From positions 1,201,501 to 1,265,500 of the forward strand of contig NZ_CP115446.1 in assembly GCF_027912455.1 (NCBI RefSeq): a DNA stretch of 64,000 nt, read 5' to 3'. This document shows, one piece after another, positions 29,244-32,421 of this stretch; positions within the stretch are counted from its first letter, which is position 1; each line of letters starts with the position of its first letter. The translations under genes and the position numbers were made by a program. The DNA is from Aurantiacibacter sp. MUD61 (GTDB taxonomy: Bacteria; Pseudomonadota; Alphaproteobacteria; Sphingomonadales; Sphingomonadaceae). A model generated the notes under the pieces. That model was not told where the DNA came from. It searched no databases and worked only from the letters and a program-made list of their open reading frames with translations.

Positions 29244-30305
29244 ATGTCGTTGCTCGAAGCCCGCAAGACCTACAAGCCCTTTGAATATCCCTGGGCCTAT
29301 GAGTTCTGGAAACGGCAGCAGCAGGTGCACTGGATGCCGGAAGAAGTGCCCTTGGGTGAGGACTGCCGCGATTGGGCGCAGAATCTCTCCGATCATGAGC
29401 GGAACCTGCTCACGCAGATCTTCCGTTTCTTCACTCAGGCCGATGTCGAGGTGCAGGATTGCTACCACGAGAAATACGGCCGCGTGTTCAAGCCGACCGA
29501 AGTGAAGATGATGCTCGCCGCCTTCTCCAACATGGAGACGGTGCATATCGCGGCATATTCCCACCTGCTCGATACGATCGGCATGCCCGAAAGCGAATAC
29601 GGCATGTTCCTCGAATATGAGGAAATGAAGGACAAGCACGACTATTTGCAGGAATTCGGCGTCGACAATGACGAGGATATCGCCCGTACGCTGGCGATGT
29701 TCGGCGGCTTTACCGAAGGGCTGCAGCTCTTCGCCAGCTTCGCCATGCTGATGAACTTCCCGCGCTTCAACAAGATGAAGGGCATGGGTCAGATCGTCAG
29801 CTGGTCGGTGCGCGATGAAAGCCTGCACTGCGAAGGCATCACCCGCCTCTTCCACGCCTTCTGTCAGGAGCGTGACTGCCTGACCAAGGCGGTGAAGGAA
29901 GACATCATGGACATGTGCCAGAAAACGGTGCGCCTGGAAGATGCCTTCATCGATCTCGCTTTCGAGGACGGCCCCGTGCCCGGCATGACGGCGAAGGAAA
30001 TCAAGAAGTATATCCGCTACATTGCGGACTGGCGCCTGCAGCAGCTCGGCCTGCCGACCATCTACATGGTCGAAGACCACCCGCTGCCCTGGCTCGCCCC
30101 GCTGCTGAACGGTGTGGAGCACGCCAACTTCTTCGAAACCCGCGCCACCGAATATTCCAAGGGCGCGACGACGGGCAATTGGCAGGACGTATGGTCGAGC
30201 TTCGACAAGCGCCGCACCGCCAAGGCCGCGAACGAAGAAGAAGTCGCGGACGAAGGCCCGGACATGTTTGGTGAGACCAGCGCTAAGGGTGTTGCTGCGG
30301 AGTGA
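29244..30305 (+). CDS. nrdB: Ribonucleoside-diphosphate reductase class Ia, beta subunit
   Basis: The small subunit holds the di-iron centre and the stable tyrosyl radical used by NrdA. The 353-residue protein has the first ligand helix METVHIAAYSHLL, with Glu, His and the radical Tyr, and the second DESLHCEGI. The acidic C-terminal tail (DEGPDMFGETS) corresponds to the NrdA-docking region. No N-terminal ATP-cone is present. It starts at ATG 29244 and stands apart from nrdA, separated by small unrelated genes. Weak hairpin downstream. Confidence 0.96.
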   Translation: MSLLEARKTYKPFEYPWAYEFWKRQQQVHWMPEEVPLGEDCRDWAQNLSDHERNLLTQIFRFFTQADVEVQDCYHEKYGRVFKPTEVKMMLAAFSNMETVHIAAYSHLLDTIGMPESEYGMFLEYEEMKDKHDYLQEFGVDNDEDIARTLAMFGGFTEGLQLFASFAMLMNFPRFNKMKGMGQIVSWSVRDESLHCEGITRLFHAFCQERDCLTKAVKEDIMDMCQKTVRLEDAFIDLAFEDGPVPGMTAKEIKKYIRYIADWRLQQLGLPTIYMVEDHPLPWLAPLLNGVEHANFFETRATEYSKGATTGNWQDVWSSFDKRRTAKAANEEEVADEGPDMFGETSAKGVAAE

Positions 30306-30317
30306 TTTGATCCGTTT

Positions 30318-30342
30318 CGGCGGTGTCGCCTTGACACCACCG
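30318..30342 (+). terminator. Weak stem-loop after nrdB
   Basis: CGGCGGTGTC (30318-30327) pairs with GACACCACCG (30333-30342) with one mismatch and a five-base loop, 12 bases after the nrdB stop. There is no U-tract. Confidence 0.4.
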
Positions 30343-30387
30343 TCTGAATGATTCAGATCTCGTTTTGTTCTACAAGCGGAGGATCAA

Positions 30388-31035
30388 ATGCTCGACCCGA
30401 ATGGCCATAGTTCTGCCGGAATGTCGCTGCTGGAGACCGCCGGTAGTCAGCAATTTGGAACGATCCTCGCCGATCCTCCTTGGCAATTTCAGAATCGCAC
30501 CGGGAAGGTGGCGCCAGAGCACAAGCGCCTGAACCGCTATGGTACGATGACGCTTGACGAAATCTGCGAATTGCCGGTGTCAGAGATAGCTGATGATCCT
30601 GCGCATCTGTATCTTTGGGTGCCAAACGCCCTTCTCCCGGATGGTTTGCGCGTGATGGAAGAATGGGGTTTTCGCTACGTTTCCAACATCATTTGGGAGA
30701 AGGTCCGCAAGGATGGTGGGCCTGACGGGCGCGGTGTGGGTTTCTATTTCCGCAATGTTACCGAAGTTCTTTTATTTGGCGTTCGCGGGAAGAATGCACG
30801 GACCCTTGCACCCGGGCGTCGGCAAGTGAACATCATTCGCAGCCGCAAGCGTGAGCACTCGCGCAAACCTGACGAGCAGTATCCTATCATAGAGGGTTGC
30901 AGTTGGGGGCCGCGTATCGAACTTTTTAGTCGTGGGGCGCGTAAAGACTGGACGGTTTGGGGTAATCAGGCTGACGAAAGCTATGAGCCTAATTGGAAGA
31001 CCTACGGCTACAATAGCGCCGCACCAGCTGAATAG
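30388..31035 (+). CDS. MT-A70-family N6-adenine DNA methyltransferase (candidate R-M modification enzyme)
   Basis: The 215-residue protein has the MT-A70 catalytic motif DPPW (Asp29-Trp32) right after TILA. Typical downstream blocks follow: LYLWVPNALLPDGL, GFRYVSNIIWEKV, and TEVLLFGVRGKN. In bacteria such enzymes methylate adenine N6 in DNA, often as partners of type II restriction enzymes (for example the MunI type). A good GGAGG site precedes ATG 30388. The gene is convergent with a BglII/BstYI-like endonuclease gene, eight bases apart. Base composition is lower in GC than nrdB. RNA or orphan methylation would be alternatives. Confidence 0.85.
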   Translation: MLDPNGHSSAGMSLLETAGSQQFGTILADPPWQFQNRTGKVAPEHKRLNRYGTMTLDEICELPVSEIADDPAHLYLWVPNALLPDGLRVMEEWGFRYVSNIIWEKVRKDGGPDGRGVGFYFRNVTEVLLFGVRGKNARTLAPGRRQVNIIRSRKREHSRKPDEQYPIIEGCSWGPRIELFSRGARKDWTVWGNQADESYEPNWKTYGYNSAAPAE

Positions 31036-31043
31036 GCCGCTAT

Positions 31044-31874
31044 TTAGTGATCTGATTCCTCGTCGAAGAGATCGTCTGCCTTGATGCTGTCATCGACGAC
31101 CGGGTTTTTCGCCCTCCATTGCTTGAGTTCCGTAAAGATGGGCTCTCGAAAGCCAAGCGCGAGAATCGGGCATCCTCCAGATCTCCCGGCATTCACTCGG
31201 TAGTCCAACTTACCCATCCAAGTAGTGCTCGCACCGTATTTGTCTTTGAACGATTTCTTTTTGTCAGCGTTGGTACTGATGCGTGAACCTATGTCAGCGA
31301 ACATCGCAGATAAGTTAGTTGAACGAGTTAAAATTATTCCGACATCGATGATGCCGCACTCGTAGAACATGCGCATTGCATAAAGGTCACGATCAAAGGT
31401 CTGATCCTTGCTGTTCCATTCAAGATCAAATGCGACTCGCCCTTTCACGAAGTCGATTTGATGGCCGTCCAAAAAATTTTCTAGGACGGATTGGTCTTGA
31501 GACGTCAGAAACTTTGATTTGCTATTCTTCTTGTTGAGGACCTTGGCCGATTTCTTAACGAGAAGATCGGCTGATATTCTTGTTTCATTCCAGCCTAGTG
31601 GATGCAGGAGCCCTTCCAATTTTTTAGCTATACGCGATTTATTTCCCCCGCCTTCCAAGATATCCCGCATTTCAATTTCAAATGGAAGCAGGACATCCAA
31701 CAACTCTTGAAAGAGTACAGGGTGTGCTGACCGTGCAAGCGTAGCGGCATTGCGGAAACTTCGGAATTCGTATTTGTCGGTAAACCCATCTGGAAGCGTG
31801 TTTTCTATGATTTTGTCTTCAACCTTGATCTTTTGGAGCGGTCGAAGTGCGGCTTGCAGGTTTTCGTCGTCCAT
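31044..31874 (-). CDS. Type II restriction endonuclease, BglII/BstYI-like
   Basis: The 276-residue protein has a C-terminal half characteristic of the BglII/BstYI family: FVKGRVAFDLEWNSKDQTF, then DRDLYAMRMFYECGIIDVG, IILTRSTNL, and GASTTWMGKLDYRV with GGCPILALGF. The catalytic PD-(D/E)xK-like residues would be Asp141, Glu152 and Asn154, Asn taking the place of the lysine. ATG 31874 follows GGAG at a six-base spacing; a longer upstream frame exists but lacks such a site. The gene is strikingly AT-rich, a sign of transfer. Known relatives cut RGATCY or AGATCT; specificity here is unproven. Modification would come from the neighbouring MT-A70 enzyme. Confidence 0.82.
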   Translation of the reverse strand: MDDENLQAALRPLQKIKVEDKIIENTLPDGFTDKYEFRSFRNAATLARSAHPVLFQELLDVLLPFEIEMRDILEGGGNKSRIAKKLEGLLHPLGWNETRISADLLVKKSAKVLNKKNSKSKFLTSQDQSVLENFLDGHQIDFVKGRVAFDLEWNSKDQTFDRDLYAMRMFYECGIIDVGIILTRSTNLSAMFADIGSRISTNADKKKSFKDKYGASTTWMGKLDYRVNAGRSGGCPILALGFREPIFTELKQWRAKNPVVDDSIKADDLFDEESDH

Positions 31875-31977
31875 AAGATCTCCGTAGTCGATTGGAATCG
31901 AATTAGAATTACACTTTTGCTTTCTTTCCTTCCTAACCCCTTTCCTACATCCCAAACAAGCTCCCACCCTCCGGCGC

Positions 31978-32421
31978 ATGAGCAGCGCCACATCACCTCG
32001 CCACCCGAAACCCCGCCGCCGCATTCCGGCGTTCCACCCCGTGCCCGTGCGCGCACGCAAGGACGGGTGGACGCCCGACAGGCAGGGCGCGTTTATCGGT
32101 TATCTTGCGCAGACGCTCTGTGTGGCGGAGGCCGCGCGGCGGGTCGGGATGGACGTGACCAGTGCCTATCGACTGCGCCGCCGGGCAGGCGCGGCGGGGT
32201 TTGCCAATGCCTGGGATGTGGCGCTGGGCAAGCGGGTGAGCGGGGTCAATCGCGCCTCGGCAAAGTCCACGGGTCTCTCGGCCGCCTATCGCTTCCACAC
32301 GGGGCTGGTGCAGGTCGTGATGCGGCGCGGGAAATTCCGCAGGATTCTGCGCAAGAATGACGACAATGCGATGCTGCAATTGCTCGCCCAATGCGACAGG
32401 CCGGGGGTGCATTATGGCTGA
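31978..32421 (+). CDS. Helix-turn-helix-type hypothetical protein
   Basis: The 147-residue basic protein has a probable helix-turn-helix (TLCVAEAARRVGMDVTSAYR then LRRRAGAAGF) in residues about 45-75. A Pro/Arg-rich N-terminus comes before it and a short helical C-terminus after. I recall similar short HTH proteins in Sphingomonadales, where the HTH resembles those of terminase small subunits or transposase N-termini, but the role is unknown. It returns to normal high GC directly after the R-M pair, so it marks the right edge of the foreign segment. Confidence 0.6.
   Translation: MSSATSPRHPKPRRRIPAFHPVPVRARKDGWTPDRQGAFIGYLAQTLCVAEAARRVGMDVTSAYRLRRRAGAAGFANAWDVALGKRVSGVNRASAKSTGLSAAYRFHTGLVQVVMRRGKFRRILRKNDDNAMLQLLAQCDRPGVHYG

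Follow-up and report, generated by a model that had tools for sequence, protein, structure and literature searches.

A predicted RGATCY restriction-modification pair of the Nph3I kind with a conserved self-target site upstream of its methyltransferase gene in Aurantiacibacter sp. MUD61

Type II restriction-modification (R-M) systems joining an MT-A70 methyltransferase to a BglII/BstYI-type endonuclease are exemplified by Nph3I of Nitratiruptor phage NrS-3. In vitro, the endonuclease R.Nph3I (PF09195) cut probes carrying any of the four forms of RGATCY unless they bore N6-methyladenine (m6A), and RG(m6A)TCY was produced by the adjacent M.Nph3I (PMC10734518). RGATCY was 100% methylated in the Nph3I host and phage, and M.Dor12838I is a relative sharing this site (PMC9723563). 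We analysed a related gene pair in a stretch of 64,000 nucleotides from Aurantiacibacter sp. MUD61 (contig NZ_CP115446.1, positions 1,201,501 to 1,265,500), hereafter the window. The pair belongs to this widespread and already named kind of R-M system; what the sequence comparisons suggest to be new is a conserved self-target site at the promoter of the methyltransferase gene and a recurrent genomic address behind nrdB. We consider it likely that the pair is a type II R-M system of the Nph3I kind, a reading that takes in a putative methylation feedback at the methyltransferase promoter. The two genes are:

30388-31035, forward strand: MT-A70 DNA N6-adenine methyltransferase (MTase), 215 amino acids, PF05063, predicted to make RG(m6A)TCY
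31044-31874, reverse strand: BglII/BstYI-type restriction endonuclease (REase), 276 amino acids, PF09195

A preliminary description, made from the letters of this DNA, had proposed two facing genes of these families, and both open reading frames (ORFs) were recovered there, convergent and with 8 bases between their stop codons. Pfam profile searches bore out both identities: the MTase matched PF05063 (MT-A70; E=1.4e-29, 103.6 bits, cut-off 23.9) over residues 23-194, with no further Pfam match in the protein and with the DPPW motif beginning at Asp29, as had been noted, and the REase matched PF09195 (Endonuc-BglII; E=3e-44, 151.1 bits, cut-off 26). With PADLOC, in which close type II methyltransferase models are present, the MTase was assigned to the MTase_II model (2.9e-93) and the REase was weakly matched (0.0018). 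Plasmid records annotate relatives of the two proteins as 'MT-A70 family methyltransferase' and 'BglII/BstYI family type II restriction endonuclease'.

Over residues 14-210, the window MTase shares 73% identity with M.Nph3I, whereas the REase shares just ~33% with R.Nph3I. In both systems the MT-A70 gene is adjacent to the PF09195 endonuclease gene, but the Nph3I genes stand in tandem, with the endonuclease before the methyltransferase, and no RGATCY was found within ~200 nt upstream of either of them. The proposal in the preliminary description that m6A would protect an RGATCY-like site is well supported, because the homologous pair M.Nph3I/R.Nph3I modifies and cuts this site in vitro (PMC10734518). 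By this homology, the exact specificity of the window pair is very probably RGATCY with m6A. The argument is weaker for the REase because of its low identity to R.Nph3I, and the target of the enzyme may be RGATCY in all its forms or only some of them, for instance AGATCT. Pairs of this kind are also borne by phages, namely Mesorhizobium phage vB_MloP_Lo5R7ANS (L141) and Nitratiruptor phage NrS-3 itself (L140).

The same m6A-modified site has been assigned by methylome to M.Ath2165II of Azospirillum thiophilum (PMC4706337), and has been reported for Zymomonas strain CP3 (PMC8088579) and for Sulfitobacter genomes (PMC9025767); these are likened to the window pair by site alone and not by sequence. 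In Rhodobacter blasticus, RGATCY is protected by N4-methylcytosine (PMC6256690), which is not expected from an MT-A70 enzyme. MCA0246 of Methylococcus capsulatus strain Bath is predicted to recognise RGATCY and has no predicted REase nearby (PMC13390346); in strain Texas of the same species (L101), a 72%-identical MTase is preceded by a 43%-identical relative of the REase.

Upstream of the MTase gene, positions 30331-30370 read TTGAC-N19-AGATCT-NN-TTTTGTTC, so that a predicted target of the pair itself lies in the putative promoter region. The elements concerned and the two further AGATCT sites at the locus are:

30331-30336, forward strand: TTGACA, candidate -35 element of the MTase promoter (TTGAC at such spacing in 20 of 32 related loci)
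30355-30360, forward strand: AGATCT, predicted own target (RGATCY) of the pair, 33 bases before the MTase start, conserved
30363-30370, forward strand: TTTTGTTC, conserved element (TGTTC in 27 of 27 aligned promoters, by construction, as the alignment anchor)
31179-31184, no strand assigned: AGATCT within the REase gene, not seen at that position in other loci
31876-31881, no strand assigned: AGATCT immediately upstream of the REase start codon, rarely shared among convergent loci

Only the first of the three AGATCT sites, at 30355, is conserved. An alignment-based genome search kept the best 80 of 460 relatives. The upstream set comprised 32 MTase-first or convergent loci with at least 75% MTase identity, each represented by the 150 nt that precede one fixed codon; start codons were assigned by simple rules, and the comparison was begun after the site had been seen in the window. 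Left out of these counts were L068 (run of N), loci with MTase identity below 60%, an MTase match starting after residue 25 or less than 150 nt upstream, and L044, which is the same locus as L191 with shorter flanks. RGATCY occurred in 23 of the 32 upstream regions, compared with 8 at most for the 31 other palindromes of the same shape, in 2 of 54 REase-first loci, and in 0 of 15 MTase-first or convergent loci with MTase identity below 75%. Two of the 23 sites lie off the promoter position (at -139 in L154; after an in-frame ATG in L155), which leaves 21. The spacers of the 20 loci with TTGAC-N19..21-RGATCY form 19 clusters at 70% identity, which speaks against simple inheritance of the site within unaltered DNA; kinship among the loci is accounted for partly, through these clusters.

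The site-bearing loci fall in one MTase clade of 28 (support 100/92, tree of 99 rows). When 27 of its 28 promoters were aligned on TGTTC (L150 has no such anchor and was left out), GATC was found in 25, as RGATCY in 21 and as YGATCA in 4; the other 2 have GGTC. Most columns of the spacer carried less than 0.2 bits. In many relatives the downstream element reads TTATGTTC, with a candidate leaderless start codon; the leader in the window is longer.

The motif was also followed beyond these loci. All 20 distinct occurrences of TTGAC-N19..21-RGATCY in 1.23 Mb lay upstream of an MTase gene, in a sample biased by having been fetched around the system. A longer motif, TTGAC-N19..23-GATC-N4-TWTGTTC, was scanned over 396 whole genomes of the order; as it was written from these promoters, it matches known loci by construction, and its other matches are the test. 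It gave 20 matches, with 0 for the reversed control: 15 at MTase genes, 2 at 5' MTase remnants and 3 elsewhere. RGATCY was present in 16 of the 20, 14 at MTase genes and 2 at remnants, and in none of the 3 matches elsewhere in the 396 genomes. One remnant (L231, genome G345) matches the MTase by tblastn (8.9e-8), retains both the promoter motif and its RGATCY, and runs into a transposase-like frame. The other (L226, genome G039) matches the start of the L034 MTase (88% over 25 residues, 4.9e-12), likewise keeps motif and site, and is cut short.

It has long been asked how an R-M pair can establish itself in a new cell without killing it, and many well-studied systems solve this problem through a control protein. 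No control gene lies within the MTase-REase locus, to which the search was limited: the gaps there, of 82, 8 and 103 bases, are too short for one, in agreement with the preliminary description. Here, RGATCY downstream of the TTGAC box may stand in for such a gene. The MTase would methylate the adenine of RGATCY on both strands, and the REase would cut unmethylated RGATCY, or a subset like AGATCT, in incoming DNA. The TTGAC box and its spacing would put RGAT at the end of the -10 element, and transcription would begin at the A of the leaderless ATG in many relatives; this placement is tentative, because the -10 match in the window is poor and a strict scan reports no promoter. Methylation of both adenines would plausibly reduce initiation. 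Methylation has a comparable effect at the Dam site in the promoter of the IS10 transposase. MTase transcription would thus be high when the system arrives in a cell with unmarked DNA, or directly following replication, and would fall once the promoter site, like the rest of the DNA, is fully methylated. We lean towards a feedback through methylation of the promoter site, with this sign; it is the best reading of the conserved site, albeit an unproven one. If the feedback is true, the site offers a way of entry without a control protein, and the family holds many natural variants for comparison, some of them without the promoter site.

CfrBI, LlaDII and AhdI use other methyltransferase families. 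Their methyltransferase promoters are described as controlled by methylation (PMC12707154, PMC3874152), and they share with the window pair a cognate site in that promoter, although the CfrBI genes are divergent with overlapping promoters (PMC12707154), unlike the convergent genes of the window. No description of a methylation-read promoter circuit was found for the MT-A70/BglII kind in the literature searched, which covered few subscription journals.

Several observations weigh against the proposed feedback or the system behind it. RGATCY is missing at the promoter place in 7 of the 28 clade loci (L033, L147, L150, L152, L154, L188 and L189) and in 11 of the 32 loci overall; L033, L147, L188 and L189 are those that keep GATC as YGATCA. 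The longer, TTGAC-containing motif is missing in 13 of the 28 MTase-bearing genomes among the 396. A strict sigma-70 scan of 30250-32050 calls no promoter, and the window offers only a weak -10 match (TCAGAT, 3 of 6). The downstream TGTTC is conserved too, so another factor could bind there. The REase is distant from R.Nph3I, at only ~33% identity by sequence, and AGATCT is not depleted in the genome, with 317 copies in 2.97 Mb.

The conserved TGTTC suggests a footprint wider than six bases and leads to the alternative that the promoter RGATCY is an operator for the MTase or another protein, in the same R-M pair, with occupancy rather than methylation as the signal. Some other methyltransferases are known to repress themselves by binding an operator, but the autorepressors described in the same source have an N-terminal helix-turn-helix (PMC3874152), whereas the window MTase, with 215 amino acids, has the MT-A70 domain only; we regard this alternative as doubtful. 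Another alternative holds that the GATC is promoter sequence unrelated to the specificity of the enzyme. It would fit the position of GATC where a -10 element could be, and the four clade members with YGATCA, outside RGATCY. A -10 element, however, does not need the outer R, Y and C, yet the full palindrome is kept in 21 of the 27 promoters, and all 16 RGATCY-bearing motif matches in the 396 genomes are at MTase genes or their remnants, which makes this explanation unlikely.

A self-site in the REase promoter was also considered and rejected: besides the window, only L038 and L082 of 22 convergent loci have RGATCY within 120 nt upstream of the REase gene. A tandem AGATCCAGATCT near the REase gene was likewise rejected as regulatory, since it lies inside the coding sequence, with the start as chosen, in L109, L135 and L138; in L098 it lies upstream of the chosen start, yet within the open frame.

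The REase appears to be intact. Its predicted fold is BstYI-like, within the BamHI/BglII-like folds, by a structural aligner run against chosen structures, its ORF is full length, and it retains the residues invariant among 19 aligned relatives. Identity to BstYI and BglII (solved structures 2p0j and 1d2i) is 20% and 18%. The preliminary description had proposed Asp141, Glu152 and Asn154 for the active site; alignment to BstYI upholds the first two and replaces the third with Asp150, giving Asp141, Asp150 and Glu152 as the candidate active site. These three residues are invariant in 20 aligned sequences, and so is Asn154, which is nonetheless outside the aligned acidic positions. BstYI has Glu and Gln where the window REase has Asp150 and Glu152, and BstYI itself is not blocked by m6A (PMC10734518). 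That the MTase is a solitary regulatory enzyme next to a dead REase is very improbable given the full-length ORF, the retained residues and the predicted fold, even with undepleted AGATCT, an MTase locus in which no REase was found (L191) and 11 Azospirillum genomes with the MTase outside the examined flank of their REase.

Avoidance of AGATCT was rejected: three genomes of the same genus without the system have 406, 291 and 316 copies in 3.4, 3.2 and 3.1 Mb, against which the own genome shows no depletion. Within the window, 40 RGATCY sites were counted against 76.5 expected from shuffles, a figure for the window alone from which nothing is concluded.

Among 199 genomes of the family, 18, including that of strain MUD61, carry the REase (E<=1e-3), and each of these 18 has, in addition, an MTase with an identity of 63% or more; the MTase is in broken pieces in G007 and on the same contig ~14 kb away in G075. 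As 18 of the 19 family genomes with such an MTase also have the REase, an orphan methyltransferase was set aside. In the order, 28 of 396 genomes have the MTase (E<=1e-60), and in that draw none of 12 genomes of the same genus besides the own has it; two other same-genus genomes (G499 and G516) have a related pair at another place.

Gene order varies among the 83 loci with both genes, a set gathered by similarity and hence unevenly sampled: the REase precedes the MTase in 53, the genes are convergent in 23 and the MTase precedes the REase in 7. By sequence, the nuclease partner varies far more than the MTase. Among 99 loci, 173 of 456 pairs with MTases at least 80% identical have REases below 35% identity or without a match, which suggests that the nuclease was replaced or diverges fast while the MTase is retained. 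The 28-row MTase clade contains all three REase classes, and on the whole 99-row MTase tree the class changes 8 times, where 2 is the minimum possible; 1 of 200 label shuffles was as low as 8, showing that the classes are also clustered on the tree. Classes were formed by single linkage at 42%, which lumps several subfamilies, and loci without an REase, MTases below 170 residues and REases below 150 residues were dropped from tree and pairs. In Azospirillum, 16 loci with REase genes ~48% identical to that of the window (L063-L067, L070-L077, L080, L083 and L090; genomes G525-G535) have no MT-A70 relative in the examined flank, and all 11 genomes searched carry a ~70%-identical MTase outside it; apparently, a split R-M system occurs across this genus.

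The remaining results concern the genomic place of the pair, which is bordered by:

29244-30305, forward strand: nrdB, ribonucleotide reductase beta subunit (NF007186, 586 bits), left border of the cargo spot
31978-32421, forward strand: small ORF with sub-threshold helix-turn-helix similarity (Pfam), right border of the cargo spot

The preliminary description had pointed to an AT-rich endonuclease gene with high GC returning in the next gene, and the scan agrees: GC content is 0.585 in nrdB, 0.551 in the MTase gene, 0.466 in the REase gene and 0.673 in the next gene, against 0.607 for the window as a whole. When 831-nt windows were slid along it (step 100), 0.16% reached the AT-richness of the REase gene, and the sole ones with GC of 0.49 or less start at 30901-31201, covering that gene. 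In G506, whose nrdB is the most similar among the genomes of the genus, 97% identity holds until window position 30303, ends at the nrdB stop codon and returns at 31940, with ~2.2 kb of other DNA between. Positions 30306-31940 also correspond to differing DNA on the 3' side of nrdB in L181-L187, L190 and L192-L211 of the genus, where several carry defence-type domains, namely AIPR/AbiU, putAbiC, ThsB TIR, FRG and HNH, and no MTase or REase relative was found behind nrdB in the 28 same-genus relatives.

For 20 of the 28 flanks (all but L194-L198, L201, L204 and L205), the leading cargo protein was compared with Pfam, and 10 of these proteins also with PADLOC. Pfam gave 9 matches above the cut-off (AIPR, putAbiC, ThsB TIR, FRG, HNH_2, AAA_16 twice, an IrrE-like peptidase and MerR; one AAA_16 match is barely at the cut-off, with KAP_NTPase above it), 3 below it only (SIR2_2, DndB and 7tm_1) and none for 8 proteins. 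PADLOC gave AbiU (1e-171), HNH, DpdB, ThsB and some weaker calls, with no call for 4. We call the 3' side of nrdB a defence spot as a description that implies no enrichment; it is a fixed genomic place in which defence genes of these bacteria may be sought. No paper joining nrdB, defense island and hotspot was found in the literature searched.

Within the MTase clade, 16 of 28 loci lie behind nrdB (within 600 nt, same strand) compared with 1 of 76 other loci, which span many phyla; L035 has too little upstream DNA to tell. By these comparisons, the system recurs on the 3' side of nrdB, where relatives of the genus have varying cargo that includes defence-type genes. We are evenly divided over a wider proposal, that of a mobile, self-limiting MTase module in which the m6A target of the MT-A70 enzyme would govern the promoter of its own gene and transcription would directly reflect how well the genome is marked, and which would be kept across genera while its BglII-fold partner is swapped and gene order changes, repeatedly housed behind nrdB. 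Both MTase remnants, L231 and L226, also lie behind nrdB.
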